Source of the DNA: a virus
DNA: 47,404 nt
Reading direction: 5' to 3' (one strand)
Virus record (IMG/VR): IMGVR_UViG_3300037488_001785
Coordinates: 1-47,404 of that record
The notes under the pieces are model-generated. The model did not search any database, was not told the origin of the DNA, and worked only from the letters and a program-made list of their open reading frames with translations. Shown piece by piece: positions 1,439 through 37,625 of this stretch. The translations under genes were made by a program, and so were the position numbers. Within the stretch, counting starts at the first letter, position 1. Every line of letters begins with the position of its first letter.

Positions 1439-1924
1439 TCAAGCTATTCGCACATCGGCTGGTCGCGCTCGGCGAAGAAGTCGATCTGTCGAAGCACTCG
1501 TCACCTTCTTGAACCCGAAACGCCCATACCATCGGATGATGCTCTCCGTGTCCATCACACCTTCGTCGTGGTCGGGGAGCGCAAACAGATAGGTCGCGGT
1601 GACACCCATCTTGTCGAGCCGCTGTAATGTCGCAGCGAGGACTTCTCGGGCCTGTCCTTGTCGTCGGGCTTCGCTTGGCGTCCCCACCCTGTCAACGTAT
1701 GCGACTTTCGCGCGTGCGGGCTCTTGCTCGACGATCTCCTCCATCTCGCTCACCGTCGCAATATCTGAAGGTCTTCCGACCCAACCGTCACACCGACTCC
1801 CTGCTTCGTTCGTGACGTAGAAAGAGTAGAAATTCCTGATATCACCATCGGGGCGGACCACCGCGCGCACACCCGCATTCGCTCGGAGATGGCAGGAGAT
1901 CCGACGGCGAGACGTCTTCTTCAT
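1439..1924 (-). CDS. GNAT-family acetyltransferase-like protein
   Basis: A 161-residue protein from the ATG at 1924, which overlaps the previous stop by four bases. The C-terminal half shows the GNAT core: RRQGQAREVLAATLQRL (motif A, the Q/R-x-x-G-x-G/A acetyl-CoA loop), a following strand TYLFAL, and WYGRFGFKKV (motif B, Y-x-x-x-GF). Such enzymes move acetyl groups from acetyl-CoA to amines. The substrate is unknown; phage GNATs may modify host proteins or block toxins. The N-terminus MKKTSRRRIS is strongly basic and contains the K/R-T-S-R motif that also occurs in the metallopeptidase and kinase-like proteins of this window. Confidence 0.75.
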   Translation of the reverse strand: MKKTSRRRISCHLRANAGVRAVVRPDGDIRNFYSFYVTNEAGSRCDGWVGRPSDIATVSEMEEIVEQEPARAKVAYVDRVGTPSEARRQGQAREVLAATLQRLDKMGVTATYLFALPDHDEGVMDTESIIRWYGRFGFKKVTSASTDRLLRRARPADVRIA

Positions 1925-6939: not shown

Positions 6940-6942
6940 GGG

Positions 6943-7863: not shown

Positions 7864-7897
7864 AGTTCCTCTGTGACCTGCCGAGCTGCTTGAGGGA

Positions 7898-7987
7898 TCA
7901 CGCCGCCTTAGCGTGCTTGCGCTTCCACCACCAGTAACCGCCGCCACCTGCGACGACTGCGGCGAGGGCGACCCACGGGCCGTAGGC
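7898..7987 (-). repeat. 90-bp direct repeat, copy B (YWWW anchor)
   Basis: Partner of 6943-7032. Only about five differences are seen by eye over 90 bases, fewer than in the rest of the two genes, which suggests recent exchange of the anchor module. Confidence 0.85.
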
Positions 7988-8515
7988 TGAGAGGTATCCC
8001 ATAAAGCCTACGCTCTCGCCAGTCCCAGGGCTGACGGTCTCGCCGCCATCAGGTTCAGTGGGATCGGCGGCAGCCGGAGTCGAGGGATCGATCGCGGCGC
8101 CGGGAGAAGCACCCGAAGTCTTACCCGAAGTCAAAGTCGAGGTTGCGGTTGAAGTCGAGGTTGCGGCACGCGATGCGGCACCACACGCCACCCGCGCCGG
8201 AGCCGGAAGCGCGCTAGCGTACGCGGCAGGAAGCCGAATCCGCGCCCCGTCCTTCTTGTAGTCCTCGCGCGTGCCGAAGGTCGGCAGCGCAACGCTCATG
8301 GCGCCCTGCGTCTGCGCCCAAGCGGTGAACGCATCCTTGCTGTTCTTACCCCAAATACCATCTGCTCCGATCCGCTGCCCCGCCGCGATGAGCTTCCGCT
8401 GCGCATCGCAGATGGTCATCGTGATATACGGGTTCGCGGTCGGCACGGACACGTTTGGACTGGCCGTGCTGGACGTGGAAGCCGAGGTCGGTCCTTTGCC
8501 GAGGTGGTACGTCAT
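7898..8515 (-). CDS. Tail-anchored protein with peptidoglycan-binding-like domain, paralogue (MSYH-GLG family)
   Basis: A 205-residue protein from ATG 8515. Tag: MTYHLGKGPT, the variant without GLG. It lacks the unique domain of its neighbour, but keeps the peptidoglycan-binding-like repeat (AQRKLIAAGQRIGADGIWG), the REDYKKDGARIRLPAAY block, a Ser/Thr/Pro linker and an anchor (WVALAAVVAGGGGYWWWKRKH) that is almost identical. It is the first gene of the minus-strand membrane cluster. Its promoter TGCTACCGT lies 7 bases before the start codon, back-to-back with the promoter of the plus-strand gene at 8576. Confidence 0.75.
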   Translation of the reverse strand: MTYHLGKGPTSASTSSTASPNVSVPTANPYITMTICDAQRKLIAAGQRIGADGIWGKNSKDAFTAWAQTQGAMSVALPTFGTREDYKKDGARIRLPAAYASALPAPARVACGAASRAATSTSTATSTLTSGKTSGASPGAAIDPSTPAAADPTEPDGGETVSPGTGESVGFMGYLSAYGPWVALAAVVAGGGGYWWWKRKHAKAA

Positions 8516-17300: not shown

Positions 17301-18546
17301 CCGCTACGATCTCAACCAAACCACCGCCCGCGCCCGGCCCCGTCGCGTGACCTGCGCCCGCATTGATGCTGACCCCGCCACCCGCGCCAGTCGCCGCAGC
17401 GCCCGCGCCAGCCGAGATGGTAACGCCGCTGCCAAACACGCCGTCGTTCTTGCCGAGGACGGTGACGGCACCCGTACTGTCGACAGTGATGACTGGCGTG
17501 TTACCGACCTGGACCTGAAGCGCGTCACCCGTGCTCGTCGTCGTGTTGACGGTGAGAGCCGTGCCCGTGCCCGTCGTGAGGACCGAGAGCGCATCGACTG
17601 CGGCGACGGCCGACGAAATGCCGACCGGGACCGTCGTGACTGCGATCGTCTGACCGTTGACGTACGCGGTCTGAAGCGACGCGCTGCCGCCCGTGCCGAC
17701 CTCGACCTTGTCCCAGCCCGTCGTCGGGGAGGCGCCCGTCTTGAGGTACAGGACGCCCGCGTCCTGCTGGTAGAGCGAACCGAGCGGCGCCGTGACGCCC
17801 GCGCCCGCCGAGGGCACAGCCGAGCCGACGAAGAAGCCAGCGGTGACGCTGTTCTGCGTGAGCGAGAGCGCGGCGCCCTGCGTGATCGCACGCGGCGAGA
17901 TGACCTTGACGCCACCGGGAGCGCCGCCTACCGAACTGCCGCCCGTGAGCGTGACGTCGCCGCCGATGCCCACGCCGGGGGCCGCGCCGCCGGTCAGCGA
18001 GAGCAGACCGCCCGCGCCGGAGCCGTCGGCTGCGCCGCCCGTGACCGAGAGCGTCGAGGCCGAGGCGTTGAGAACCGTCGCGCCTTCGAGGCGGATGTTG
18101 TGGTTCGCCGCCTCACGGAAGGTCAGGTCGCCGAGGATTCCGGCGACGACACTGAGGGTGTCGAGGGTCAGCGAGGCACCGATGATCGTATTGCCGTCGA
18201 ACTCCGCCGTCGAAGTGACCGTCAGGTTGCCGGGGATGTTGACCTGCGTGTTCGTCCCGCCGATGTTGATGATCGGGGTGCCCCCGGCCGAGGTCACGAG
18301 ATCGATGCTCGTCGTGTTGGTGCCGCCGACGTTGATGGTCGTGGTGGCGTCAGCCACGCCGATGTCAACCTGCGTCACTGCCGACGTCGCGCCCGTGCCA
18401 CCGACGACGACCGACGTCGCGATGGTGCTACCGAGGGTGAGTGCTCCCGCTACGCGGGCGTCCACACCAATGACGCTGAGTTCATCGCCTGCGGCGAGCT
18501 GGGAAACCGTACCTGTAACTACCTTGAGCGGAAGAATCGTAGCCAT
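14335..18546 (-). CDS. Giant repetitive tail-fibre / appendage protein
   Basis: A 1403-residue Gly/Ala/Ser/Thr/Val-rich protein. The N-terminus (PLKVVTGTVSQLAAGDELSV) matches that of the 347-residue protein at 21758-22801 (PLKIVTGTV) and is probably the virion attachment part. The shaft has three long modules of about 310-330 residues. Each contains FxGxxxPS...GSLYxRDxG...ELYIKT...W (GSLY near residues 254, 565 and 893), alternating with Gly-rich strands (for example GGDVTLTGGS, GGVNITGGAN) typical of beta-helical or triple-stranded fibres. The C-terminal 400 residues differ and may form the tip. No enzyme motif or chaperone domain is seen. The ATG has AGAGG upstream. Confidence 0.85.
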   Translation of the reverse strand: MATILPLKVVTGTVSQLAAGDELSVIGVDARVAGALTLGSTIATSVVVGGTGATSAVTQVDIGVADATTTINVGGTNTTSIDLVTSAGGTPIINIGGTNTQVNIPGNLTVTSTAEFDGNTIIGASLTLDTLSVVAGILGDLTFREAANHNIRLEGATVLNASASTLSVTGGAADGSGAGGLLSLTGGAAPGVGIGGDVTLTGGSSVGGAPGGVKVISPRAITQGAALSLTQNSVTAGFFVGSAVPSAGAGVTAPLGSLYQQDAGVLYLKTGASPTTGWDKVEVGTGGSASLQTAYVNGQTIAVTTVPVGISSAVAAVDALSVLTTGTGTALTVNTTTSTGDALQVQVGNTPVITVDSTGAVTVLGKNDGVFGSGVTISAGAGAAATGAGGGVSINAGAGHATGPGAGGGLVEIVAGEASTADNGGPVNIRAGDNSFAGAGEPGSISITAGSKTSALGTATASGYVQIAAGDNAGDGIAADVSINGGSSTGLLATNHGGDVRLTGGDSDSGTPGGVVINSGRSADATSPTAGPALTITQTGASGATASIFAGSLVPSALGVAASEGSLYLRDAGATGELYIKTANLDTDWTLASVAGDTDLQTAYTSGAGTIAVTAAKPVSISSAVASTALLVNTTSSGNALQVQVATSDVVVVDQTGAVLVTATSNAAVGSAVSLTAGSGGASGGGGDATLKSGAATKAFNAGTVSVLGGDNIFSGAGLGGLVDIKGGAKIDVAATAAAGGVNITGGANSGTNFAAAGGSVTIAGGAVAGTNATPGNVSISGGQAAGAGQGAQVSVVAGENTTGVGGTSLVRGGNAISGAGGTVKLWGGSSASGLPGATLILSDRSATNTIATEDGAALTIQQTGAAGTTVELFAGTADPSDVGASGVVADLGSLYLRNVGAATGEMYLKTATGDKAWSQIATLAGQSLQAAYDAGAVVALDDTGGIQFNQADGALTNAATLSLTNAEDGANFNTLTVNRSPVTSAAAGDGVGITMGANALGAGLGVTQGGTGTGIVVNATSTGAIASFQSGATPVLAIGATGGFASTPLVNQVFTVTTTGTGGISLDSVASSYLKVSGGALTLQGATTSAFGVTAAPSAVQITTGGDVSLTAASTKTITLAASGAASYVAIQSATGQATIDAGSYISLTAGSGVVQLGNTAKSDAIVVQAAGGVTVAPKSGQDFSATTAGAGVVTLNAAAASNFTVTGANLTLSTATSGNVVLLAPSVGDITFKANASLVIPFNTAAAPDLVGFTATSIIGALNELAVGTTSASQIVQGGFDTATNSVTVGMLGYLTSAANVVQRAIATSMVASRVFGASEGTANSMTTAGTIELQTIETGVTVLAGEPLFLSAVLAGSVTNAAPSAPTEVILPVGYARTNGTAAGGTVPMILGVGLAVLLT

Positions 18547-18675
18547 GCGGAACCTCTAGTGTGTCGGCGTTCGCCGGAATTCAGATCGTGGGGGGAGCGT
18601 GAATTTCTTCGTACAAACAGAAACTAGCGGCCCAGGCTGTTTCGACGAGCGAACGGACCTCTACCTAGAGGAAAA
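18547..18675 (-). other. Leader region of the giant fibre gene
   Basis: About 130 bases with small palindromes: CCTCTA/TAGAGG at 18658-18671, near the end of the preceding gene, and CGGCG/CGCCG at about 18562-18573. AGAGGTTCCGC precedes the ATG. No clear -35/-10 pair is seen. Confidence 0.4.
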
Positions 18676-18996
18676 CTACAAGAAGTAGGGGTCGAGATCG
18701 ACGTTCGCGACGGGCTGCGTCGCGGTCACGTCAGTCCACACCGGACCAGCCGGAGGCCGAACGCCATTCCGGCTGACGCCCTGCGGGATGCGGAAGCGGG
18801 AGAGGTAGTCTTGGGCAATCGCGTTCGTGGTCTGCACGACGTCCGTGTCGGCGACCGTGATCTTCGCGCAGAGCGAAGGACCGCAGATCGTCTTCCCGTC
18901 GTTCTTGCCGAACCCGACCTTGAAGCCGAACTTTCCGTTCTCAGTGTACCATGAGTCGATGACTTCTTGCGTGAGCTTGTATCGCTTCGCTGCCAT
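18676..18996 (-). CDS. Hypothetical protein, possibly virion-associated
   Basis: A 106-residue protein starting MAAKRYKLTQEVIDSWYTENG. GGTGG lies before the ATG at 18996; a longer upstream frame overlaps the collagen-like gene in another frame and is rejected. It has one Cys pair (CGPSLCAK) and ends ATQPVANVDLDPYFL. It sits between the giant fibre and the collagen-like gene, so a role in fibre assembly or as a minor structural protein is plausible. No family recognised. Confidence 0.6.
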   Translation of the reverse strand: MAAKRYKLTQEVIDSWYTENGKFGFKVGFGKNDGKTICGPSLCAKITVADTDVVQTTNAIAQDYLSRFRIPQGVSRNGVRPPAGPVWTDVTATQPVANVDLDPYFL

Positions 18997-19031
18997 GAAA
19001 TTCCACCATGCCTTCGCAGGCGTTAGAGGTG

Positions 19032-19499
19032 TTAGAGGATGAGCGGTGCGCTGGGTACGAGAACTAGGACAGTGGTACTCTTCGCGTAACCGACACGCAA
19101 GCAAATTCCACCGGGACCAGGAGGAGCAACGGACGTCAAGGTTCCAGGTACGACGTCCAAGTAATAGGACGCCCCTGGAGTGAGCGCTGGCCCCGTCCAA
19201 AGGTACTCGCCGGAGTAGGTAACGGTCGCCGTCGCCGGGGTTGGAGTAGCGAGGACGAGCCCGACAAAAGAAAGCACAGTCGGAAGGGCGGCAGGGTCCG
19301 CCTTCGCGAGCGTGTTCGCCACCGACGTCGCGATGACCGCATCGCCGACGGACAGCCCCGACTGTAGCCACGACCCAGGGTCCGAGACAACGCTCGGACC
19401 CAGCGTACCTGGCGGCCCTGGGGGTCCAGGCGGCCCCGGTGGTCCCGGCGGACCGATCCCTCCACCGCCGCCGGAGGGGATGTTCGTGATGAACCTCAT
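19032..19499 (-). CDS. Collagen-like fibre protein
   Basis: A 155-residue protein. Residues 9-36 include Gly-rich linker and repeated GPP triplets, a short collagen-type triple helix. The rest is a beta-rich domain (LSVGDAVIATSVANTLAKAD ... LTPGASYYLDVVPG ... CLRVGYAKSTTVLVLV) like the distal domains of phage tail fibres, where a state value and a time or validity series appear as alternating strands. Trimeric assembly is expected. It overlaps the SGNH hydrolase gene by four bases, so fibre and hydrolase may be made together. Confidence 0.75.
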   Translation of the reverse strand: MRFITNIPSGGGGGIGPPGPPGPPGPPGPPGTLGPSVVSDPGSWLQSGLSVGDAVIATSVANTLAKADPAALPTVLSFVGLVLATPTPATATVTYSGEYLWTGPALTPGASYYLDVVPGTLTSVAPPGPGGICLRVGYAKSTTVLVLVPSAPLIL

Positions 19500-20095
19500 C
19501 GGAATGACCTCACGAGGAGAACCGTGCCTACGATCGCCGTAAGCGCGAGGGCTACGAGGGGGAGAACGGGCGCGGGCGCGGGGATGGGCGACGAGGTTGT
19601 TGCGACTTTCCCCGCCATGCCCGCAGCCCAGCTACGGTAGCCCGCTTGCGTGAAATGCACGCCGTCGGGCGCATGGTTTCGCTGCGTCATCGGCCAAGAG
19701 TCGAACCAGCGGACCCCGAGGGCGGGGAGCGTCGCAGCTTGGCGGTCTTTCACGTCTTGCAGGCGCGCTTGGAGGGAGGTCGCGCTGAACGAAGGCCCGA
19801 ACCAGATGATCTCTGGGGAGCCCGCCGCCCGAATCTGCTCGACCGCCGCCCGCAGCGTCGCCTCATAGTCCGCGTTGGGTTGATCATTCGTCCCTAGCTC
19901 GACCAGCAGGACGTCGGGATGGTACTGCGCGACCGCCGACCCGAGCTTGCCTTGCGCGACGTACCACGCGGTCGATTTCCCACGGTTGGCCTCGGCGTAC
20001 ACGACCTGCAAACCCAGGCTAGCGAGCGGGGTCGGCAGGGCGGACGCGAGCGCCTCCATGTGGCTGTCGCCGAGTAGGACGATGCGAAAGGTCAT
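19496..20095 (-). CDS. SGNH/GDSL hydrolase with C-terminal membrane anchor
   Basis: A 199-residue protein. Block I GDSHM (S11 nucleophile), block II Gly39 in ANRGKS, block III GTND (N70) and block V DGVHF (D144, H147) are all present, so the serine esterase is likely active. Phage SGNH enzymes usually deacetylate or de-esterify surface polysaccharide or lipid. After a Pro/Ala linker, residues about 176-195 form a transmembrane helix ending VRSFR. A membrane anchor is unusual for a tail-type esterase. There is no signal peptide, so topology resembles the tail-anchored family at 3010-8515. Confidence 0.85.
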   Translation of the reverse strand: MTFRIVLLGDSHMEALASALPTPLASLGLQVVYAEANRGKSTAWYVAQGKLGSAVAQYHPDVLLVELGTNDQPNADYEATLRAAVEQIRAAGSPEIIWFGPSFSATSLQARLQDVKDRQAATLPALGVRWFDSWPMTQRNHAPDGVHFTQAGYRSWAAGMAGKVATTSSPIPAPAPVLPLVALALTAIVGTVLLVRSFR

Positions 20096-20119
20096 AGGGT
20101 TCGAGCGGGGGTCGCCCGC

Positions 20120-21562
20120 TCACTCCCAGTAGCCGGTGACCGAGCATACGCCACGGAGGATCTGCGCAGCGTTCAGCGTACCGATCGGAATTTTGAGGAT
20201 GATCTGGACGTACTCGCCTGCGTTCACCACGAGAGGTGTGGCGAAGTTGCGGACAACTTCAGGCGGGTTCGGCATCGCCCCGATGGCAGCACCGATCGGC
20301 CAAGCCTGGAGCCCGAGCGTCTTGCGCCGGGGGATCTTGGTCGCGGCGCCGTCGGCTGCGCCGACGAGGGTTACCGTGTTCGAGCCTACGGCGATGGACC
20401 ACTGGAACACCATAGCCGTGGTGGCGACCGCTGCGCCCGTGACGATTGAGGAGATGCACACGCCTGTCAGGAACAAGGAGCGACCCGTGAGCGCAACCCC
20501 CGGCGGCGGAGACTGATAGCCGAACACGATGTAGTCGGTCTCGCCGCCCGCGATGGCTACGAACTGCCACTGCCCCCCGAGCGTGGCGTAGCCTGCTGCC
20601 GTGTTCGAGAGCGTGATCGAAGACGGGGCTACGTTGTTGGGGTAGTTCGCGGTCGAGCCTTGGGGCATACCTCCGGCGCCTTGAATCGAACTCAGGCCCG
20701 CTCCGGCCATCTGCTCCGACCACGGCTTGTTGGAGTTCCAGTCCCCCAGGCTCACGGATAGGTCCGCCAGCTTGAGCACCTGCGCGGAACCGACGATAGC
20801 CGCCGTGTTGTAGATGCGACAGAATGCCGGTAGCGCAGACTCGGAGCACGGCGAACCTGTGCCGCCGGGGACGTCCAGTCTCGCCAGGAGGACGTCATCG
20901 ACCCAGAAATCGACAGACTGCTGCGACACGGAGATCACATATCGGTGGAGCACACCGATTTCGGGGATCGGCATGGGAGACGTAAGCGACTCGGAGCCGT
21001 TGTTGGCGATGACACCTACCAGCGTCCCCGCTGCCGTGAAGCGGAACGCTACGCCATCATTCAGCGTCCAGGCGGCGGCGACCGAGGGGATACCGGCGCC
21101 GATCTCCATGACGTTGTCCGGTGTGAGCGGATTCACATAGAGGGCCGTCCACTCGAAGTACGTCGGCGCAGCGCCGGTCAACGGGAACGTGCGCCACGTC
21201 TGGAAAAGCGCCTGCGTGTTTATGGTGGTGCTGAGCCCAGCGTTCAGGTTCACGAGACCTGTCGCGTAGGTGATCGTCATGGTCGTCAGGACTTGCTTGA
21301 ACACGCCTGAGTTCTGCGCGGTGTAGTTGAACGACTCGCTCATCAGCAGCGTGTCCGTGCCTACACGCAGGCGGAAATCGTCCGTCGTCTCCGGCGACAG
21401 CAGGTACGGCGTGCCCGTGACCGCGCCGTCGTCGTTCTCCGACATGATCGCGGCGTAGCCCGTGAGCGCCGTGTCCTTACCGAGATTGACCTTGAGGTTG
21501 CTCCCCGTGTCTACCTCGACGACGTTGCCGGAAATGTTTCCTTCAATGCGAAATCCAGCCAT
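20120..21562 (-). CDS. Virion-type structural protein, beta-rich
   Basis: A 480-residue protein, MAGFRIEGNISGNVVEVD. The N-terminal 60 residues form short strands ending in a linker. A central region (ESFNYTAQNSGVFKQV ... QSVDFWVDDVLLARLDVPGG) has the strand pattern of a concanavalin/LamG-like jelly roll, seen in carbohydrate-binding virion proteins. The C-terminal half is also beta-rich (TGRSLFLTGVCISSIVTGAAV). It sits within the fibre cluster, one base from the next gene. I infer a receptor-binding or baseplate component. No named family is certain. Confidence 0.65.
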   Translation of the reverse strand: MAGFRIEGNISGNVVEVDTGSNLKVNLGKDTALTGYAAIMSENDDGAVTGTPYLLSPETTDDFRLRVGTDTLLMSESFNYTAQNSGVFKQVLTTMTITYATGLVNLNAGLSTTINTQALFQTWRTFPLTGAAPTYFEWTALYVNPLTPDNVMEIGAGIPSVAAAWTLNDGVAFRFTAAGTLVGVIANNGSESLTSPMPIPEIGVLHRYVISVSQQSVDFWVDDVLLARLDVPGGTGSPCSESALPAFCRIYNTAAIVGSAQVLKLADLSVSLGDWNSNKPWSEQMAGAGLSSIQGAGGMPQGSTANYPNNVAPSSITLSNTAAGYATLGGQWQFVAIAGGETDYIVFGYQSPPPGVALTGRSLFLTGVCISSIVTGAAVATTAMVFQWSIAVGSNTVTLVGAADGAATKIPRRKTLGLQAWPIGAAIGAMPNPPEVVRNFATPLVVNAGEYVQIILKIPIGTLNAAQILRGVCSVTGYWE

Positions 21563-21563
21563 G

Positions 21564-21746
21564 TCAGGCTCCTACTGGAAAGAGGCCGACGAAGAGACCC
21601 TGCTGGGTGCCTCCGCTATCCACGGTATAAATCTCGTACCGCGCGAGGCGACCGCTCGGATCGCCGAAGTCTTTGTTGATGATCGTTCCGTCAGGTGCGT
21701 CGGGCACTTCTTCGCCGCCGCAAGGTCCACCAGAGAGCGTGATCAT
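21564..21746 (-). CDS. Small hypothetical protein in the fibre cluster
   Basis: A 60-residue acidic protein from ATG 21746, chosen because GAGGAAG lies right before it. The sequence MITLSGGPCGGEEVPDAPDG suggests a short strand and loop, then a beta segment RLARYEIYTVDSGGTQQG. Tiny proteins of this kind often cap or join tail parts, but no match is recognised. Confidence 0.6.
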   Translation of the reverse strand: MITLSGGPCGGEEVPDAPDGTIINKDFGDPSGRLARYEIYTVDSGGTQQGLFVGLFPVGA

Positions 21747-21757
21747 ATCTTCCTCAC

Positions 21758-22801
21758 CTATGTCCAAGTCCAGTGGACGAGAAACTTGCCGTTGAGCCGA
21801 AGTTCAGTGACACCGTAGATCGTGAACCCGACCCCTGGCGTCGGGATGCTGCACGGGAGCGCGATTGCCATCGGAGCCATCATGTGCTCGTACCCGTTGT
21901 GCGACGCGGTCGAGTCTACCATGAAGAACGCTTGGACGTGGCTCGTTGTGAGAATCTCCGCCTCGCCCGTGATCGCTATGGACGCGATGTTCGTGCCGAT
22001 GGGGATGAAGTAGGTCGTCGTGGCAAGAGCGGCCTGTGCCACGGCGCTCGCGTTCGCGTAGGTGCAGCTAACGCCGGGGACGACGCTGAGGATCGTGAAA
22101 AGGCCGTTGTTACCCGCAGAGGTCGCGCCAGCGATGCGGATGTAGTGTCCCACGTCGCGCGTCGCGAAGGCGCCCGCGACAGATAGCGTCTGGGTCGGGC
22201 CAGCCGAGAAGCTGTCCGTGACGAGCATGGCCGTCGGCGTCCCCCAGTCGATCTCCGCCGAGCCTGCGTGGACGACGGACACCTTCGTCCACGCCGTGTT
22301 CGCGGCGGCCGTCTTGATCCAAACCTCGCCCGCCGTGCCGTTTTTGCGGTGGTAGGTCGAGCCTGCGTTAGCGACGACGCCCGACCCCGCCGAAGGATCT
22401 GCGGTCCCTGCGAACACGCCCACCGTCAGCGCGGGCTGCGTCAGCGTGAGCACCGGCCCGTCAGCAATCGCCGCCGTGTTCGTCGCGGTCCGCGTCGTCT
22501 CCAGCACGACGCCGCCGGGCACGGCTCCGGCGCCCGTCCCGCCCGTCCCGCCGCCCGTGATGACCACGTTGCCGCCCGCGAGCGCGGCGGCTGTCGTACC
22601 GGCCGCGCCGCCCGTGACGCGGGTTGCGCCGCCTGCTCCGGTCCCTGCGGGCGTCGCCGCGCCGCCGACAACTGTGAGGTCGTTGCCTGGTGCGTTGACA
22701 CCCGTCACGGTCTCCGCGAGCACGCCGCCGACGAGCGCGACGTCTGTGGTCGCGAACTCCGTGACGGTCCCGGTGACGATCTTCAGGGGTTGTTCGGCCA
22801 T
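21758..22801 (-). CDS. Fibre protein paralogous to the giant fibre
   Basis: A 347-residue protein from ATG 22801. The N-terminus MAEQPLKIVTGTVTEF matches the start of the giant fibre, and one shaft module is present (FAGTADPSAGSGVVANAGST...GEVWIKT...AWTKV) after a Gly/Ala/Thr stretch. The C-terminal 180 residues are a distinct beta domain (LSVAGAFATRDVGHYIRIAG ... LRLNGKFLVHWTW). The two proteins likely share the virion docking site but carry different tips. The gene starts 1 base after the stop of the putative wall-active gene. Confidence 0.8.
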   Translation of the reverse strand: MAEQPLKIVTGTVTEFATTDVALVGGVLAETVTGVNAPGNDLTVVGGAATPAGTGAGGATRVTGGAAGTTAAALAGGNVVITGGGTGGTGAGAVPGGVVLETTRTATNTAAIADGPVLTLTQPALTVGVFAGTADPSAGSGVVANAGSTYHRKNGTAGEVWIKTAAANTAWTKVSVVHAGSAEIDWGTPTAMLVTDSFSAGPTQTLSVAGAFATRDVGHYIRIAGATSAGNNGLFTILSVVPGVSCTYANASAVAQAALATTTYFIPIGTNIASIAITGEAEILTTSHVQAFFMVDSTASHNGYEHMMAPMAIALPCSIPTPGVGFTIYGVTELRLNGKFLVHWTWT

Positions 22802-22802
22802 G

Positions 22803-23825
22803 TCACCCGCCTGCCCGATGCAGGAAAACGCCAGTCCCTCCGACAAGTAGAACGGCTCCGCCGACGAGCAAAAGAATCGCTAGCGCGTAGGGTGCGCCCT
22901 CGACCGCGTAAGCGATCATGGAAGCGGCCGTCACTCCGGGGTAGACGTCCTTGACGACCTCGGGCGGCCAGAGCCCGCTGCGTGCGGCGACGAGCATGGT
23001 CCGCTGTCCGCGCGCTACCCAGTTCCCGTAGGTGCTGCTCCCGAGCGCGTTGATCAGCGCCTTGGAGAAGGCCCGGACATCGAGATTCCGGGCGAGCGTG
23101 GCTTCGAGAATCTGCCGAGCCTTGCCGGGGGCGTTGACGCTGAACGCATGGTAGACGCTCATCGCCAGGTCGAGGTACGGGCCGACGTCGCTCATGCTCG
23201 CGGTGCGGAGCCACTCCTTGAGCCGCGCGTTGTCGGCCGAGGCACCGGGGATGTACTTCCGGTAGGCGTCGGCCTCGGAATCGAAGTTCGTGAGGAGCCA
23301 GTCGATCGTCCCTTCGTACTGGCCGGGGTAGGACGTCGGATCAGCGAACGCGCGATGGAAGGCGATGGCCCACCCCTCGGCGCGATCGTACACGGGGCCG
23401 CTCGGCGGCACGACGCCACCGGGGCCGGAAAGCTGCTCGACGATGACGTTGCCGGGGACTACCGAGCCTGCGGAGTTGCGCAGGACGCCGTCGGGGCCGA
23501 CGGTCCATCCGACGGAGGCGAGCTTGTTTCGGAGCGCGAGCACGGCCCCCGTGGTGGACGACTCGAACACGCTGCGCACCATGCCCCAGAGCGGACCCTG
23601 CTTGTCGTTCGCGGGGAACACACCGATGACGTGGAGCGGCCCAGCGGACATGGCCGCGCCGTCGTAGTTCTGGACCGTGCCCCAGTTCGCGGCTTCGAGC
23701 TGAGAGACGAGGTAGAACGCCCGCGCCATGTGCAGGTCGTGCTTCGGCGGAGCCACAGCCGGGCCACCGCGAACAACGAAGCCTGACTTGCTATGGTAGT
23801 GGGTGTATTTGACGCTCTCGCTCAC
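22803..23825 (-). CDS. Putative cell-wall-active protein with C-terminal membrane helix
   Basis: A 340-residue protein from GTG 23825 (GTGA overlap). The N-terminal half (MARAFYLVSQLEAANWGTVQNYDGAAMSAG) looks like a lysozyme-superfamily domain: a helix with Glu, then a Gly-rich beta hairpin. The match is weak and I do not claim a catalytic pair. The C-terminal half is helical (LAMSVYHAFSVNAPGKARQI), and residues about 312-333 form a membrane helix (ALAILLLVGGAVLLVGGTGVF). It may be a virion-associated wall hydrolase that opens the envelope during entry. It stands between the metallopeptidase and fibre genes. Confidence 0.5.
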   Translation of the reverse strand: MSESVKYTHYHSKSGFVVRGGPAVAPPKHDLHMARAFYLVSQLEAANWGTVQNYDGAAMSAGPLHVIGVFPANDKQGPLWGMVRSVFESSTTGAVLALRNKLASVGWTVGPDGVLRNSAGSVVPGNVIVEQLSGPGGVVPPSGPVYDRAEGWAIAFHRAFADPTSYPGQYEGTIDWLLTNFDSEADAYRKYIPGASADNARLKEWLRTASMSDVGPYLDLAMSVYHAFSVNAPGKARQILEATLARNLDVRAFSKALINALGSSTYGNWVARGQRTMLVAARSGLWPPEVVKDVYPGVTAASMIAYAVEGAPYALAILLLVGGAVLLVGGTGVFLHRAGG

Positions 23826-24496
23826 TTCAGACCCCCCGGACGAGGCGACACGCCGTTGCAGGCCACACACTGCACGAATCCGATTTTCGGATCGTACTGG
23901 ATGACGTGGTTGAAGGTCCGACGTGCGATCTCATCCGCCCGCCGTTCTCGCTCCCGAGGGATACCCGAGCCGACCCGGCGTGTCAATCCCTCAACGGGAA
24001 AACGGAAGTCGATCGCGTGACCTAGCTCGTGGAACATCAGCCCGAGGAGGTGCTTGCGGGTGAGCCCAGCCGCCCGAGGCGCGAAGGTGATCGCGAGCGA
24101 ATCGTCGGGAAACTGCTGGCAGTAGGCGTAGTGCCTGCCGCTGTCCCCCGCGTCCTCGTTGACGTTGAAGCCGACGTGCCCGAGGTCGGGGAACTTCCGC
24201 TGGGCCTTTTTCAGACACTCCGCGAAGGTTCGAGGCAGCACCGACAGGTCGGCCTTGTTCGGCATCAAGGAGAACCCGACGATCTTCGGGTTCTGCACGA
24301 GACACCGCGTGCGACGACCGCGTGAGGTGCGTCTGCGTGAGGTGCGTCTGCGTGAGGTGCGTCTGCGTGAGGTGCGCCTCGATGAAGCGCGGCGGGGCGC
24401 TGGCGTACGCTTCACCCTCAGCCCGGCGGGCAGCGAGAGCTGGTCCATCGCGCTGTCGTCGGAGTCGTCGATCGGGCCAAGGAAGCCTCCGGCCAT
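23822..24496 (-). CDS. HELGH zinc metallopeptidase with RRTSR-repeat tail
   Basis: A 224-residue protein. Residues 17-30 (MDQLSLPAGLRVKR) resemble the start of the next gene's product (LDQFSLPKGMKAR). Residues 35-64 consist of RRTSR repeats, coded by 15-bp DNA repeats. The catalytic domain has HELGH (156-160) and, 22 residues later, ERERRADEIA (182-191), an arrangement like ImmA/IrrE-type or minigluzincin peptidases (HExxH, then E-x-x-A-D). It should be a zinc protease. A basic R/T/S tail suggests DNA binding or that it is itself a kinase target. Two C-terminal cysteines (CVAC) may bind another metal. It overlaps the gene at 22803 by GTGA. Confidence 0.8.
   Translation of the reverse strand: MAGGFLGPIDDSDDSAMDQLSLPAGLRVKRTPAPRRASSRRTSRRRTSRRRTSRRRTSRGRRTRCLVQNPKIVGFSLMPNKADLSVLPRTFAECLKKAQRKFPDLGHVGFNVNEDAGDSGRHYAYCQQFPDDSLAITFAPRAAGLTRKHLLGLMFHELGHAIDFRFPVEGLTRRVGSGIPRERERRADEIARRTFNHVIQYDPKIGFVQCVACNGVSPRPGGLK
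24312..24386 (-). repeat. 15-bp tandem repeat coding RRTSR
   Basis: Three perfect units of gtgcgtctgcgtgag at 24327-24371, flanked by degenerate units on both sides. The 15-bp period equals five codons, so the repeat number can change without breaking the frame. Confidence 0.9.
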
Positions 24497-24538
24497 GATT
24501 TTCCTACGTTCTCGTCAATGTGTTGTTGGGGCTCGAAG

Positions 24539-26323
24539 CTAGTAGCGGCGGCGGTTCGCGGCGAGGGGGACTTTCTTCGCCTCGCGGCGCGCGTACTCGA
24601 TCCCCTGTTGAACGCTGCGGAAGCCGAGATCACTCTTGACCGCGACGAACTTGTCACCGCGCCAAGCGAGCGCGAAATTCCCCGGATGGGCGTCCGCCAG
24701 GTAGGTGATGCCGTTCCGCTTGCACCACAAGTGCCCTTTGTAGAGGGGTAGGCCGTATTCCTCGTTCGCGCTGAGAATCTCCGACCATTCAATCGCGGGC
24801 GCCATCATCAGGAGGACCATTTTGACCGACTGATGGTACGCATCGGAGAGCGCTTGTCTCGCGCGGGCGGCACTCCCGAAATGCGGGGTCGTCAGCGCAA
24901 CCATCGGCTCGATGTTCTTGCCTTCGGCATAGTCCAGGTACGTCACCACGGTCTCTGTGATGACCCCGTACGCGGTGCTCACCGGATGCAACATCAAAGT
25001 CGGGTCGCCCGTCTGGATGACATCGAAAGGTAGCTCCATTCGGAAGACGTCATAGACGTGGATGAGTCCGTCGAGGGGGTGACGCTCCTTCGCGATCAGG
25101 TTGAGGACGTACAGATCCGCCGCATCCACCGTCAGCTTGAGCACCTTCGACGGGTCCGGCAGGGAGAACGCCGTCCCGAAATTGCCGCAGCCGATCTGCC
25201 GCTCCGCAAAGGTGCCGTCGCGGACCTCAGCCTCAATGCCCAAGCGCTTCGACGTAACCGGGAAGAGCTTCAACACCTCCGCCCACGCCTCACCGACGAC
25301 GTGTACGTCGTCGGTGCTGTCGGTGTAGCCGCCACGCAAACCGAGCGGGGCTTCCGTCGGAGCCCCCGGCATCGCCGCGAACTTCGCAAACTCCACGGGG
25401 AGCTTGGACAGGTCCGACATCTGCTCCTCCCGAGGCGGGAGCGGTACGATCCTCCGAGGCTGCGCACCCGCTATGCCGAAAGCCGGTCGCACAGCCCCAG
25501 CGGGGCGCGGAACTACGACCGGCTCCAGCGCGGCCACATCGACGCCGAGTTCGATGAGCTTCCGGCGAAGTTCGGCCAAGAAGCGCCGGGCGTCGTTGTC
25601 GTAACGCCCGAGGATGTTGCGGGCGACGTCAACAGCGGCAACGGCGATACGGTAGCCTCCGTCGCGGTGGATAGCCTTCGCAGTGACCTGTGCGGACTCC
25701 AGAGCTTGCCGGTCGTAGTGACCCGTGCGCTCCCACTGGGAGCCTATCGCGTAGACACTCTTCGCCACATCGAGCGCAGCCGCGTCGTGCGCGACTGTGT
25801 CTCGCGACGCAGCGGCATGGCGAACCGGGGCCGGAACCACCGGACCGACGGCACGGGCGGGAGCCGGAGGGGCGGGCTCGTCCACAGGCCGCGCTTGCGG
25901 ACCACCGAAGGGGCGGGTGTCCGACATATCCGGCTCGGCGTCGAGCGCCACGGGCGCCACGGGGCGCTCAGGGGGCGCGGGGCGCGGGATCGGCACCCGA
26001 CGAGCTTCCGCCGGTTGACGCGGCTCGGGCGCCGCCTGCCGAACGGGCGCCGCCTGCACCGGACGGGACGTCTTGCGGGCCGAAGTCTTGCGGGCCGAAG
26101 TCTTGCGGGCCGAAGTCTTGCGGGCCGAAGTCTTGCGGGCCGAAGCACGACGGGTCGGAGCCGGGGCCGGAGCGGCTTCCGCCTGCCCCCGCCCCTTGGC
26201 CCTCGCAACCAGCCTGGCTTTCATCCCCTTGGGGAGCGAAAACTGGTCGAGAAAGCTGAGGTCGTCCCCTTTACTACCCGGCGGAGGGGAGAAGAAGTTC
26301 TGGGAGTTGGGTCGGATGGTCAT
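24539..26323 (-). CDS. Protein-kinase-like protein A with ARKTS-repeat tail
   Basis: A 594-residue protein. Residues 23-36 carry FLDQFSLPKGMKAR. Residues about 60-85 are five tandem ARKTS units. A long Pro/Arg/Ala linker follows, then a helical region (about 170-250). The C-terminal 225 residues look like an atypical kinase: Gly-rich loop IGCGNFGTAF (about 375), VLKLT with the ATP-binding Lys (about 392), DAHPGNFAL (catalytic Asp and metal-binding Asn, about 543) and SDLG in place of DFG (about 563). This resembles APH/HipA-like folds. Substrate unknown; the protein's own RKTS repeats are plausible sites. It is paralogous to kinase B next to it. Confidence 0.7.
   Translation of the reverse strand: MTIRPNSQNFFSPPPGSKGDDLSFLDQFSLPKGMKARLVARAKGRGQAEAAPAPAPTRRASARKTSARKTSARKTSARKTSARKTSRPVQAAPVRQAAPEPRQPAEARRVPIPRPAPPERPVAPVALDAEPDMSDTRPFGGPQARPVDEPAPPAPARAVGPVVPAPVRHAAASRDTVAHDAAALDVAKSVYAIGSQWERTGHYDRQALESAQVTAKAIHRDGGYRIAVAAVDVARNILGRYDNDARRFLAELRRKLIELGVDVAALEPVVVPRPAGAVRPAFGIAGAQPRRIVPLPPREEQMSDLSKLPVEFAKFAAMPGAPTEAPLGLRGGYTDSTDDVHVVGEAWAEVLKLFPVTSKRLGIEAEVRDGTFAERQIGCGNFGTAFSLPDPSKVLKLTVDAADLYVLNLIAKERHPLDGLIHVYDVFRMELPFDVIQTGDPTLMLHPVSTAYGVITETVVTYLDYAEGKNIEPMVALTTPHFGSAARARQALSDAYHQSVKMVLLMMAPAIEWSEILSANEEYGLPLYKGHLWCKRNGITYLADAHPGNFALAWRGDKFVAVKSDLGFRSVQQGIEYARREAKKVPLAANRRRY
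26070..26144 (-). repeat. 15-bp tandem repeat coding ARKTS (five perfect units)
   Basis: Five identical units of gtcttgcgggccgaa in a row. On the minus strand each codes A-R-K-T-S. Perfect identity shows recent expansion or active homogenisation, and the number may vary between relatives. Confidence 0.95.
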
Positions 26324-26338
26324 CGTTTTCCCTAGCTT

Positions 26339-27796
26339 TCAGGACCGTCGATCTTGCCCCGGCCGGAGGTTCGCCGCAAGCGGAAGGCGCGCGGCTTGAC
26401 GAGAAGCGTGCTTGTAACCAGAAATGCGCCCGACGTCCTGCACGCTGTGGTGACCGAGGTCACTTTTCACGCACACGAACTTGCCGTCTCGCCAAGTGAT
26501 AGCGAAATTCCCGTGATGCACATCGGCTCCGAACAGTATTCCGTTCGCAGCGCACCAGGCAACCCCGAAACGAAAATCCTGCTCGACAGGGGAGGCTGTC
26601 AGCCCCTCCGAGGCGCGGCGCAGGAGGTTCTCCTCCACCGACTCTTCGTTGTTCTCTACCTCAAAGAGATAGTCCAACGCCGAGAGGAGGGTTTCCTCGA
26701 AGAGCCGATCGGCTTCTGCCTCGCTGACGCCGGATGCCGCCACGGCCTCCTTGATGAGAAGCTCTTTCGTGGAAAAAACATCGCCTTCGGAATGGTCGGC
26801 GAGGGTGAGCACTTTCTCCGTGACCATGCCGTAGACCACATCGACAAGGGGGCTGAGGCGCGTCTTGACCGCGAAGGGGAGCTGGATGCGGAACACCGTG
26901 TAGGTGCGGATGAGGCCAGGGATGGCGGCTTTCGCCTCCGCGAGCTTCATCGCGACGTAGGCGTCTTCGGGGTCCGCTGTGACCTTGAGCACATACATAG
27001 GATCTGGCAGCTCGAACGCCGCAGCGTACCCGCCGCTCCCGAGCCAGTCGTGCTTGAGGCTCCCGTCTCGGACCCTCTCCGCGATCCCCAGCCGCCCGAC
27101 CACGCGAGGGACGAAGCGGAGCAGTTCGATCCAACCCTCGCCGCCGGGCTCGTCGTCGCTAAGGCGGGGAGGGTGCGTTGGCGGGCTGCCCACCGACGCC
27201 GCTGCGTCCTTCGATGGAGCTAGAAGACCTTGCAACCTTCGCTCCATCGGGAGCCCTTCTAGGGCTTCCCGCTTCGCCGTCGCCGTCGCCAACCGACGGG
27301 CAGGTTGTTTCTCCGCGTCTGCGCTGTACTTGCCTTCTGCGAGGCGGATCTTCCTGCGGGCGGCGGCGGCAAAATCTCGGACGTTGCTGAGAGCGGCGCT
27401 ATCGACGCGAATCCGAAAATAGTCCGCTGCCGTGGCCGCAGCTTTGTGTGCGGCGAACGCCGCGACAGCGGCCAGCGGGGCCACATCTCCGCGAGCGTTC
27501 TCCGCCCCGATCGCCGCCTTCTCGACCGCGTCCCGAGCCTCCTCCAGACGCTTGTATATCCAAGGCGTGCGGGGGGCGGCAACCCACTCGTCGCAGACCG
27601 CGAGAGCGGCCTGTGCGACCGCGAGCGCAGCGAGAGCAGCCTCGGGCGGAGGCGCGGCGCCTTGCCTGGAAGTCTTGCGCCTCTCGACGACCTTTTTCGC
27701 GCGCTTCAACCCCGGAGGGGATGGCAACCGGCGAGCGGCTACCGCCTCGTCTTCGGGTGGATCGAAAAGATCGAGCAGGTTGCGAGGTGGCTTCAT
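26339..27796 (-). CDS. Protein-kinase-like protein B
   Basis: A 485-residue protein from ATG 27796 (ATGA overlap). An N-terminal peptide (RRLPSPPGLKRAKKVVERRKTSRQ, residues about 22-45) shares the P-x-G-L-K/R and R-K-T-S-R elements with its neighbours. A helical region (50-190) precedes the kinase-like domain: GSGGYAAAF (about 250), VLKVT (about 268), ADVHHGNFAITW (about 422) and KSDLGHHS (about 443). The core aligns with kinase A (RDGSLKHDWLGSGG versus RDGTFAERQIGCGN), so the two are paralogues. All key residues of the HxDxxxxN/DFG set are present except the usual His before Asp. Confidence 0.7.
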   Translation of the reverse strand: MKPPRNLLDLFDPPEDEAVAARRLPSPPGLKRAKKVVERRKTSRQGAAPPPEAALAALAVAQAALAVCDEWVAAPRTPWIYKRLEEARDAVEKAAIGAENARGDVAPLAAVAAFAAHKAAATAADYFRIRVDSAALSNVRDFAAAARRKIRLAEGKYSADAEKQPARRLATATAKREALEGLPMERRLQGLLAPSKDAAASVGSPPTHPPRLSDDEPGGEGWIELLRFVPRVVGRLGIAERVRDGSLKHDWLGSGGYAAAFELPDPMYVLKVTADPEDAYVAMKLAEAKAAIPGLIRTYTVFRIQLPFAVKTRLSPLVDVVYGMVTEKVLTLADHSEGDVFSTKELLIKEAVAASGVSEAEADRLFEETLLSALDYLFEVENNEESVEENLLRRASEGLTASPVEQDFRFGVAWCAANGILFGADVHHGNFAITWRDGKFVCVKSDLGHHSVQDVGRISGYKHASRQAARLPLAANLRPGQDRRS

Positions 27797-28575
27797 GGGG
27801 CTTCATGGGGCGGAGCGTCGAGGAACACCGCCATGTCGAAGGACTCCCCCGGCAGGAGGTCGAAGAAGCCCGCCTGATCCAGAACCGCGCGACCCTCGTG
27901 CGTCGAGAGCTGTAGGTCGATCGCGCCCGCGTCCGTGCTGAGCGCCGTGTGCAGATGGTAGACCAGATCCGTCCACGTTGCAGGCTTCGTCCCGCCGCGC
28001 TGGACGGCCTGAAGCTCATCTCGGACCCTGTCGAGGAAATCGGGCGAAGACACCTCGTACAAGTGCTCGTTCGCCTCGTCGTCGCCTTGCGGGCGGCGGA
28101 TCTCAATCGCCTCGAACTCGTCCTGCTCTGCGGGGGTCAAAACATCGGCAGATGTTTGCATCTGCTGCGAAGATTGCGCGGGCGAAAGCTCGACCTCAGC
28201 AGAGCGCTTCTCGGAGTAGAACTTCTTCGCCTCCGTAAGCGTGAGAGGTGCAAACTCCAGGGGCTTCTCCTCGAAAACACCGTCCGCTTGGTTCTGCCCC
28301 CAGTGCGCCTTCTCGACCTCGCGCAGAGGGGTGTCGGCGTTCCCGTACGCCTCGTAGTGCAGGTCGAGCGCAGCGGGGCCGGGCTTACACACAGCGGCGG
28401 CGACTGCGCCCTGTCGGATGCCTTCCGCGTAGACGAAAGACTCGATCTTCCCCAGGTTCCGAAGCACGTCTGAGAGGACTGACGCATCAGCCCCCGACTG
28501 CGCCAGGCGCAGGTACAGCTCGGTGCGCAGGACGAGGTAGCGACGTTCATCTTCGACCAGACGGAAGCGGATCAA
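27793..28575 (-). CDS. Hypothetical protein (TTG start)
   Basis: A 260-residue acidic protein. The start is TTG at 28575, supported by a strong GGAGGTG site 4 bases upstream and by overlap with the previous stop (TTGA). The N-terminal half is helical (LRTELYLRLAQSGADASVLSDVLRNL). The middle is low in complexity (Gln/Glu/Asp), and the C-terminal part reads SPDFLDRVRDELQAVQRGG. It lies between the 152-residue gene and kinase B and may work with them, for example as a partner or substrate. No family recognised. Confidence 0.65.
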   Translation of the reverse strand: MIRFRLVEDERRYLVLRTELYLRLAQSGADASVLSDVLRNLGKIESFVYAEGIRQGAVAAAVCKPGPAALDLHYEAYGNADTPLREVEKAHWGQNQADGVFEEKPLEFAPLTLTEAKKFYSEKRSAEVELSPAQSSQQMQTSADVLTPAEQDEFEAIEIRRPQGDDEANEHLYEVSSPDFLDRVRDELQAVQRGGTKPATWTDLVYHLHTALSTDAGAIDLQLSTHEGRAVLDQAGFFDLLPGESFDMAVFLDAPPHEAP

Positions 28576-31896: not shown

Positions 31897-32361
31897 GTGG
31901 CACCACGGAACCAACGGCTCGACTTCCACTGGATTCTCGACGGGAAGCTGGCGCAGGGGGCGTACCCCAAGCCGCCGATCGAGGCGTTCGGGCCGTTCGA
32001 CATCGTTGTTTTCTGCGCCGAAGAGCTGCAACCCCGACTTGTCGCCCTGCCACGGACGAAAAAGGCGGTCTACGTCCCGATGGACGACAACCCCTACCAG
32101 CCTGTCCCGACCGCCGACGCGAAAAGGGTCCGAGAGGTCGGTGAGATGCTCGCTAAGGACGTGCTGGCGGGCAAGCGCGTGCTCGTGACGTGCGCGATGG
32201 GGGCGAACCGCTCGGGGCTCGTCACGGGGATGACCCTGCGTGCGCTCGGGCACGGGGGCGTGGAGTCGGTGTCCCTCATCCGCGAACGGCGAATCCTCGG
32301 GGACGGCCAGAAGGCGCTCTTCAACCCGATCTTCGCGTCGTTCGTCGAGAGCAGCAAGTAG
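31897..32361 (+). CDS. Dual-specificity/tyrosine phosphatase-like protein
   Basis: A 154-residue protein with GTG start. The P-loop CAMGANRSG (C99 to R105) is the CX5R signature of cysteine phosphatases; the usual His before the Cys is Thr98. MDD at residues 62-64 could supply the general acid, and the helix LVTGMTLRALGHG follows as in dual-specificity phosphatases. It should remove phosphate from Ser/Thr/Tyr, or from a nucleotide or RNA 5' end, as some family members do. It leads a plus-strand unit with the 146-residue gene and an SNF2 helicase. Its presence with three kinase-like proteins suggests a phosphorylation switch. Confidence 0.8.
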   Translation: MAPRNQRLDFHWILDGKLAQGAYPKPPIEAFGPFDIVVFCAEELQPRLVALPRTKKAVYVPMDDNPYQPVPTADAKRVREVGEMLAKDVLAGKRVLVTCAMGANRSGLVTGMTLRALGHGGVESVSLIRERRILGDGQKALFNPIFASFVESSK

Positions 32362-32363
32362 CC

Positions 32364-32804
32364 GTGTCTGCCGACGTGGCGAGGAAGCCGAAGCTCGAAA
32401 TCCCTGCGTCCGCTCGATACAAAACCGCCGAGGGGCTCGCCAGCACTTTCTACCGAGCGCAGAAGGAGGTCATGCTGTCGGACATCAACAACAGCTTGCT
32501 CCCCTACTTCGCCCGGAAGTACCTGAAGTTCTTCTTCGAGGTGCCCCAGGAAGACGTCAAGCGAGCGCTGCTCCACGGAGACCCTTGGTTCTTCATCGCC
32601 TGGCGCGGGCGGCTCGCAGAAGTAGACCGGACGATGATCGAGACGGGGCGCGCTGTAACCGATCGGTGGTCCTTGGCACGCGCCCAACATATGCTTACCC
32701 TCATGCAGATGGTCGCTGACAAGAGGCTCGTCGCGCTCGGGGGCGTGGCGACGCACGCGGAAAACAATGGCGAAGCTGCGAATCCAACTGGGAAGAACGA
32801 CTGA
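32364..32804 (+). CDS. Hypothetical protein between phosphatase and helicase
   Basis: A 146-residue protein. I use GTG 32364, two bases after the phosphatase stop; no ATG exists before VMLSDINNSLL. It is mostly helical, with an aromatic patch YLKFFFEVPQEDVKR and WFFIAWRGRLAEVDR. The last 38 bases overlap the start of the SNF2 gene in another frame, a long overlap that suggests a shared transcript. No family recognised. Position suggests a partner of the helicase or the phosphatase. Confidence 0.6.
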   Translation: MSADVARKPKLEIPASARYKTAEGLASTFYRAQKEVMLSDINNSLLPYFARKYLKFFFEVPQEDVKRALLHGDPWFFIAWRGRLAEVDRTMIETGRAVTDRWSLARAQHMLTLMQMVADKRLVALGGVATHAENNGEAANPTGKND

Positions 32805-35978: not shown

Positions 35979-37625
35979 TCAGCGTTTGCGAGAGGTGCGG
36001 CGACGGTTCTTGGACAATTTCCGAGGACGGCTTCGTTTCTGGGCTAACTCTTCCGCGAGTTGGGGGTAGCGGCGGAACGCCTCGGCGACCGCATCTTTCA
36101 GCTCGGAGGGGACCGAAAGGCCCAGGGACTCGCGAGCGGTGATGCTCTCGATGATGATGCGATCGAGGTTCATACGCAGGTAGAACTCAGCAGATCCACG
36201 CTCACCTGTCCGCTCAGCGTCCAGCATTTTTCGGATAAAGTGGGCGTGCCACAGGAGCATCGGGAGGGTTTCGATGTCCACCCCCATCATTCGCTGCGCC
36301 AGAGACGAGAGCAGAGAGGAGACAGACGTGTCTCGGGGGTTGTAGGGCTCCTGCTCCTCGCTCTTCGGGCGGATCGCCATCGGATGCCAGATGCCGACGT
36401 CCGCGACGAAGAAGCTGCCGTCGGGGCGGCGATACAAGTCGATCTGATCCTCGACACGCCAGCCAATAGACTCGACGCGCGTCAGCTCGCGCTCGACCTG
36501 CTCATACTCACGGTTCGTGAGCCGCTCGACAGGCTCGCCGTACTCTCGGATGAGCGCAGGCAGGCCGTCCGCCGTCTCAACGTAGACGACCTCGGGGACG
36601 ATGCTCACACCTAGCTCGCGAAGTTCGTTCGCGACGCCTGCCTCGTGCATGAAGTTGCGAACGTGATCCTCGGGCTTCCACGGCTGCCCGTGGATGTTCT
36701 CGGCGGCGGGGAGCTTCACCACGATCGGACCCGTCGGTAGGTCGATCTTGTACGTCTCGCCGAAATTGCCGCGACCTAAGAACGTCACGGGCTCCCGCTT
36801 GCGCGCCAGCTCCGCGACGCCGAGCGCCCGAAGCACCTCGGGCAGATCCTTGTGCCCTTCAGTGAGGTGCGGTGGAATCGTCGTCCAGTACCCTTCCGAC
36901 CTCTCCTCCGTCGCCCTGCTCCCGTCAAAGTCCTCGTACTCGTGCTGGACCGTTCGGTAGTCGTAACGATTCCGAGAAGCGCGGGCGGGGTTCGGAGCCA
37001 GATCGAGCTTGGATGTGAAGAGGGGGCCGAGGACGAGCTTCCCAGCGCGACCGATGATGTGTTGGCCGACCATGCCCTGCCGAAGCGCTTTGATCCACGC
37101 TGGCTTGAGGTGTCGCGCTCGCAAACCTCGCGGGAAGATGTGGACCTCGACCATCTCGTCGGGACCGCAAAGTTCGGAGAGCGCGTACATCCGGTTCCGA
37201 CCTTCGTGCCCGACCACGAGAGCTGGTTCGTAGATGTGGAAATCGCTGTCTTCCCAGTTGTCAGGGATACGAACGTCGAGCATCGGCGATGCGATCTTAC
37301 CTCCGTTTTGCATATGCTCGACCAGTGAATCAGCACTGCGCGCCATCGACCGCGCAAGGGGTGGTGAGAGCGCGTGGAACACGCTCGGCGACATCCTCAC
37401 GCGCAAGCCGAGGTAGTCCACGTTGCCGTTGTTCGGCGTCGCACCTGCACCGTCCCGGTTGTCGATGTAGGTGTCGCTACACGACGCGCCGTTGCGCTGG
37501 ACGTACTCAGGGAGGTCGGCGATGCTTGGCGTCTCGCGCGCCCACTGCTCCGCCTTCGCCCGCGTGAAGCCTGGGATTCGTCCACCGAAGGCGGCTCGGA
37601 GCTGAGCTTTCGAGCGAAATGGCAT
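35979..37625 (-). CDS. Kinase-like protein C fused to an N-terminal MPFRSKAQ phage domain
   Basis: A 548-residue protein from ATG 37625. Residues 1-40 (MPFRSKAQLRAAFGG ... WARETPSIADLPEYV) match a short domain found as a stand-alone protein in many phages (MPFKSKAQ...ETP...LPE). A ParB/Srx-like region (about 80-180, VGHEGRNRMYALSEL) follows. The kinase-like part has LGRGNFGETYKI (about 280), IVVKLPA (about 302) and FVADVGIWHP (DFG-like, about 410). Its catalytic loop (VEDQIDLYRRPDGS) lacks the D-x-H-x-x-N pattern of kinases A and B, so it may be a pseudokinase. The tail KNRRRTSRKR repeats the R-T-S-R motif. Confidence 0.65.
   Translation of the reverse strand: MPFRSKAQLRAAFGGRIPGFTRAKAEQWARETPSIADLPEYVQRNGASCSDTYIDNRDGAGATPNNGNVDYLGLRVRMSPSVFHALSPPLARSMARSADSLVEHMQNGGKIASPMLDVRIPDNWEDSDFHIYEPALVVGHEGRNRMYALSELCGPDEMVEVHIFPRGLRARHLKPAWIKALRQGMVGQHIIGRAGKLVLGPLFTSKLDLAPNPARASRNRYDYRTVQHEYEDFDGSRATEERSEGYWTTIPPHLTEGHKDLPEVLRALGVAELARKREPVTFLGRGNFGETYKIDLPTGPIVVKLPAAENIHGQPWKPEDHVRNFMHEAGVANELRELGVSIVPEVVYVETADGLPALIREYGEPVERLTNREYEQVERELTRVESIGWRVEDQIDLYRRPDGSFFVADVGIWHPMAIRPKSEEQEPYNPRDTSVSSLLSSLAQRMMGVDIETLPMLLWHAHFIRKMLDAERTGERGSAEFYLRMNLDRIIIESITARESLGLSVPSELKDAVAEAFRRYPQLAEELAQKRSRPRKLSKNRRRTSRKR

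Follow-up and report, generated by a model that had tools for sequence, protein, structure and literature searches.

A short basic tag on the peptidase, kinase-like and acetyltransferase proteins of an environmental phage

A short basic tag, (R/K)(R/K)TSR, is carried by five proteins of an environmental, little-known phage: a metallopeptidase, three kinase-like proteins (A, B, and C) and a GNAT acetyltransferase. The DNA analysed is a 47,404-base virus record with 65% G+C, referred to here as the window. Judged from the sequences, the tag may be a shared address for effector enzymes that probably acts by tethering them to nucleic acid, and its invariant T-S dipeptide may be a phospho-switch. 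This is the reading we favor, and it is held tentatively. Three alternatives, in which the tags are low-complexity basic linkers, kinase substrates, or packaging signals, are weighed below with the evidence that bears on each.

Distribution of the tag among the predicted proteins

The tagged proteins and the elements associated with them are listed in Table 1. A sequence-only reading of this DNA had placed R/K-T-S-R motifs in three neighboring proteins. The three open reading frames lie on the minus strand at those places, and the motifs were found as RRTSR in four copies in the peptidase (residues 40–59), ARKTS in five copies in kinase A (residues 62–86, the last copy being followed by R), and a single RRKTSRQ in kinase B. 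The same reading gave RRRTSRKR as the C terminus of kinase C, and this is correct. The GNAT protein does begin with MKKTSRRR, as had been claimed, when it is read from the ATG at 1924, but that start is unproved, having no strong Shine-Dalgarno sequence and GTG alternatives at 1870 and 1861.

Table 1. Coordinates of the tagged enzymes, the phosphatase and associated elements in the window
Feature	Position	Strand	Description or basis
GNAT acetyltransferase, start MKKTSRRR	1439..1924	-	Pfam Acetyltransf_9, E=1.2e-5; start plausible, unproved
HEXXH metallopeptidase, N-terminal leader and basic RRTSR tail	23822..24496	-	ORF; FHELGHAIDF...RERERRADEIA
15-bp tandem repeat (peptidase)	24320..24376	-	3.8 copies, 100% identical, encodes RTSRR
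Leader segment AMDQLSLPAGLRV, pattern common to peptidase and kinase A	24410..24448	-	Local alignment
Kinase-like protein A: leader, five ARKTS units, Pro/Ala-rich linker, then a kinase-like domain at the C terminus (residues about 344–594)	24539..26323	-	Motifs
15-bp tandem repeat (kinase A)	26070..26145	-	5.1 copies, 100% identical, encodes SARKT
Kinase-like protein B, single RRKTSR tag at residues 39–44	26339..27796	-	ORF, motifs
Kinase B tag RRKTSRQ (residues 39–45)	27662..27682	-	
Dual-specificity phosphatase-like protein, no tag	31897..32361	+	Intact C(X)5R loop, CAMGANRSG
Kinase-like protein C: domain MPFRSKAQ... at the N terminus, kinase-like middle LGRGNFG...VVK...ADVG, tag RRRTSRKR at the C terminus	35979..37625	-	
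Conserved C-terminal tail of protein C (RPRKLSKNRRRTSRKR-stop)	35979..36029	-	Codon comparison with L002

With tandem copies collapsed, the pattern [RK][RK]TS[RK] occurs six times in 5 of the 50 predicted proteins. Local shuffling in 40-residue stretches, which keeps the local charge, gave an expectation of 0.077, and none of 1000 shuffles reached the observed count. The excess over chance is about 65-fold, a figure that is descriptive because the motif was defined after being seen. The ordered [RK][RK]TS within individual tails was also compared with composition, giving p values of 0.003–0.045 for each tail; composition does not explain the order of the residues, and charge alone is therefore an insufficient explanation of the tag. 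Among the genes of 13 other records, in which L007–L014 had come from a search for a related DNA pattern, [RK][RK]TS[RK] was found only in the relative L002 and in none of the other 12.

The T-S dipeptide is invariant across all five tags, and the tags sit near the N or C termini of their proteins. Five of the six recognized protein-modifying enzymes are tagged, the phosphatase being the exception, and no other gene is tagged; the split between protein-modifying and other genes comes from annotations and was drawn up post hoc. The tag is absent from the polymerase, the SNF2 proteins, the integrase, RusA, and all structural-looking genes of the window. Its absence from the DNA enzymes does not favor a simple affinity for DNA.

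Catalytic domains of the tagged enzymes and the relative L002

The peptidase contains an HEXXHxxD motif that reads HELGHAID and is followed by RERERRADEIARR with a later Glu. The widespread phage-type polyvalent zincins have an Asp three residues past HEXXH (PMC5512222), and the peptidase matches this type in its HEXXH, in the Asp three residues on, and in the Glu of the next helix. The phage-type zincins also keep a His where core strand 2 ends; in the peptidase, histidines lie ahead of the HEXXH in LGHVGFN and RHYAYC and may be candidates for it. The peptidase was not assigned to any family in Pfam, PHROG, or NCBIfam, and its search against the PDB gave nothing significant.

Kinases A and B are paralogues (32% over 275 residues, E=7e-33) that share a Gly-rich loop, VLK, D-x-H-x-G-N (DAHPGN in A), and S-D-L-G in the order found in kinases. 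The residues invariant between them are G35xG37, K53, D201-H203-G205-N206, and D222-L-G, the motifs expected of the kinase-like superfamily. After the DLG, A continues for only 27 residues and B for 37, so that both lack the usual C-terminal lobe. A hallmark of the polyvalent-protein kinases is that they have lost the C-terminal subdomain but retained the active-site residues (PMC5512222), and both features are seen in kinases A and B.

The (A/G)DxHxGN catalytic loop of the APH/UbiB-type atypical kinases, represented by Escherichia coli UbiB and SrkA, matches kinases A and B in place. A two-sequence A/B profile was compared with UbiB and SrkA using hhalign and aligned to them weakly and at the catalytic loop only (E about 0.005, probability about 6.5%). 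Unlike the APH/UbiB-type kinases, A and B have no Pfam kinase match, and their alignment is limited to 23–34 columns. Profile libraries gave no named family for A or B, and a PDB sequence search gave no kinase match. AlphaFold models of the kinase domain with A or B as the first sequence had mean pLDDT values of 35 and 41, and Foldseek searches with these low-pLDDT models returned no significant matches. The description of these proteins as kinase-like holds at the motif level for A and B and is weaker for protein C, whose likeness consists only of a Gly loop, VVK, and a possible ADVG.

A relative of protein C is encoded on L002, a 7.4-kb contig that also carries a helicase 64% identical to its homologue in the window and a dual-specificity phosphatase-like protein that is conserved above this neighboring helicase, at 82% identity. 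The N-terminal domain of the L002 protein (L002 positions 9–809) is 59% identical to that of protein C. A region of about 310 residues that holds the kinase-like part is absent from the L002 protein, but its tail, RK.SKN.RRTSRKR-stop, is the same as that of the window. The RRTSRKR cores of the two genes differ by three synonymous changes and no amino-acid changes. The tail is thus kept independently of the kinase-like domain, and the missing region is a mobile or dispensable module between the conserved N-terminal domain and the tail. For kinase C, then, the motif is not absent from all relatives, as L002 keeps one copy. Since the only relative found is a fragment that lacks the peptidase and kinases A and B, just one of the five tags is shown to be conserved.

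These proteins bear on the possibility, in line with the sequence-only reading, that the tags are primarily kinase substrates: A, B, or C would phosphorylate R-R/K-T-S in cis and in trans, with reversal of the reaction by the phosphatase. Such a role would account for the constant T-S in five tags and for an order that composition leaves unexplained. R-R/K-x-S is a classical basophilic context, and the motif fits it formally, as the sequence-only reading had noted. The catalytic equipment is also consistent with this role: kinases A and B keep the Gly loop, the Lys, the DxHxGN, and the DLG, and the phosphatase has an intact loop and is well conserved in L002. However, the L002 protein C is tagged and has no kinase domain, which means that the tag does not go hand in hand with autophosphorylation, and loops of the APH/UbiB type occur also in enzymes that are not protein kinases. 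A primary role as kinase substrate is considered unlikely.

Repeat arrays, leader and gene neighborhood

Relatives of the tagged proteins were sought in scans that rest on short conserved peptides, by which distant relatives can be missed. Kinases A and B had no relatives in scans of IMG/VR and GTDB genomes, whether run with single proteins or with alignments, and tblastn found none in phages for either kinase or in plasmids for kinase A. No relatives of the peptidase were found in phages. Protein C matched only L002, with no match in bacterial genomes. The RRTSRKR-stop pattern matched nine contigs, and L002 alone has a convincing gene; the others were rejected because their in-frame stretches span 8–82 codons. 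A triple RKTS DNA pattern had a single match in IMG/VR (L004, 8116–8153), which was also rejected: it falls within simple repetitive DNA of an AT-rich phage, at a place that has no ORF of substantial length.

The arrays in the peptidase and kinase A consist of perfect 15-bp units, which indicates that their copy number is recent and arose by slippage. The codons differ between the two arrays (CGC ACC TCA CGC AGA in the peptidase versus TCG GCC CGC AAG ACT in kinase A), and the arrays are therefore not derived from one shared DNA repeat. Perfect arrays are what would be expected if the tags were ordinary low-complexity basic linkers, produced by GC-rich slippage in disordered regions as Hc2-like pentads and contributing generic charge only. 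The HC2 family (PF07382) matches kinase A, at residues 55–87 only and below the cut-off (17.2 bits versus 40, E=0.0057), and Hc2, a DNA-binding protein, has a repeat number that differs between strains (PMC2848022). Slippage leaves several features unaccounted for: the two arrays encode the same motif with unrelated codons, the three other tags are single rather than repeated, and the limitation to one functional class together with the conserved L002 tail demands more than slippage. Plain linkers are a somewhat unlikely explanation. The HC2 match is also the only profile response relevant to the earlier suggestion of a likeness to histone H3 tails; this bacterial H1-like family responds weakly, and the H3 comparison finds no support beyond the likeness of short words.

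The N-terminal leaders of the peptidase and kinase A share the pattern DQ(L/F)SLPxG(L/M)(R/K), with a local alignment score of 44 that about 1 in 2000 shuffles equaled. The two proteins are also alike in the context RRAS-x-R-(R/K)-TS. The kinase B leader has no significant match to the leader of the peptidase or of kinase A (p = 0.11 and 0.27). The genes for kinase B, kinase A, and the peptidase are co-directional and almost touch one another. An SNF2 helicase and two small genes lie upstream, and the trio is followed by a run of genes that look structural or encode membrane-anchored proteins.

A common leader beside structural genes raises the question of whether leader and tag together form a packaging or processing signal that brings enzymes into a prohead and is perhaps clipped off by the neighboring peptidase. 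The precedent is T4, whose head proteins, while immature, carry N-terminal propeptides that direct them into the prohead (PMC10052503). The comparison is weakened by the C-terminal position of the kinase C tag and by the lack of a clear leader in kinase B. In addition, no terminase, portal, capsid protein (the HK97 type included), tail gene, or prohead protease was recognized in the window, which may be an incomplete contig. A signal of this type is quite improbable. A membrane-containing virion is possible, as is a location of the terminase, portal, capsid, and tail genes off the contig.

Other features of the window were recorded. No tRNA genes or Rfam matches were found in its 47,404 bases, and PADLOC gave no defense match. 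Many proteins encoded on the minus strand at 2163–8515 and 14335–23825 have a single C-terminal membrane helix, often with a basic tip such as VVVLLGGALVVRKLKNRSK or WWWKRKHRKAV. Two of these proteins have an apparent peptidoglycan-binding repeat, and a GDSL esterase also has a C-terminal helix. The SNF2-type helicase genes at 43395–46676 and 32767–35568 are apparently interrupted by inteins. In the first, one apparent intein splits the Walker A motif (VGSGK / TAVSLL), and another, with a LAGLIDADG-like part, lies ahead of LGRTHREGQ. The second has a LAGLIDADG_3 match, and its L002 homologue has 611 residues versus 933 and is uninterrupted through GLGKT. The start of kinase B lies inside a 10-bp repeat (GGCTTCATGG, 2.3 copies, 27789–27811), which is why two copies of ATGAAGCC are seen where kinase B meets the upstream gene; the two genes overlap by 4 bp.

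A possible shared address and its parallels in known systems

If the tag is a shared address, the phage lineage would equip its protein-modifying enzymes, near one terminus or the other, with a basic tag of a single kind, short and probably disordered. The tagged enzymes would be polyvalent-protein-like effectors made with or near the structural genes. The tag would hold them on nucleic acid, either the packaged or the entering genome, or on a common partner, and the dependence of the motif on residue order counts against a plain charge effect. Less securely, the constant T-S may be a phospho-acceptor through which the phage kinases, opposed by the phosphatase, loosen this hold. Recent slippage during replication would have determined how many copies the peptidase and kinase A carry, and the number probably matters little. 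A common address or switch of this kind would be a route for a phage to group independent effectors without their fusion into a giant polyvalent protein, and searching for the tag would then be a simple way of spotting effectors of this sort in genomes that lack annotation.

The repertoire of the polyvalent proteins includes zincin, kinase, GNAT, and SNF2 domains (Iyer et al. 2017, PMC5512222), and the phage has the same set of activities, including the HEXXHxxD zincin and kinases without a C-terminal lobe. In the polyvalent proteins these activities are fused in one polypeptide, whereas in the window they are mostly separate proteins that share a short tag. The peptidase, kinases A and B, and the GNAT protein have one recognizable catalytic domain each and only protein C has two regions, so the enzymes of the window fall outside the range of 2 to 15 known domains per polypeptide that characterizes polyvalent proteins. 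The pentapeptide repeats of Hc2 and BpH1 (PF07382) resemble the tag as basic pentads with two positive residues and a variable copy number. Unlike these repeats, the tag is appended to enzymes, keeps T-S constant, and is often present as a single copy.

The nearest analogue of the tagged phage enzymes is found in the chlorovirus PBCV-1. Its A278L and A282L proteins combine a kinase with a "basic adaptor" and were recovered together with the virion DNA; their kinase activity, it was suggested, could regulate DNA condensation (PMC3281028). These are likewise viral kinases with an attached basic region (basic adaptor, PF08789), and PBCV-1 also encodes a dual-specificity phosphatase and SNF2-type proteins, as the window does (PMC3281028, PMC7019647). 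PBCV-1 differs in being an algal giant virus with no detectable sequence relation to this phage. The PBCV-specific basic adaptor domain PF08789 had no match in the window at E ≤ 10 and none in hmmscan. A kinase set with shared, expandable tails had been put forward as new for a phage; the motif is indeed shared and expandable, but viral kinases with basic regions are already on record in PBCV-1 (PMC3281028). Carried to its full extent, the analogy would make the tagged enzymes phospho-regulated effectors that are tethered to the genome, with the kinases and the phosphatase of the phage itself acting as the switch, a counterpart of the DNA-bound chlorovirus kinases. This extended scheme is very doubtful. 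The tagged enzymes bear on the question of whether bacterial viruses, like the chlorella viruses, keep basic kinases on their DNA.
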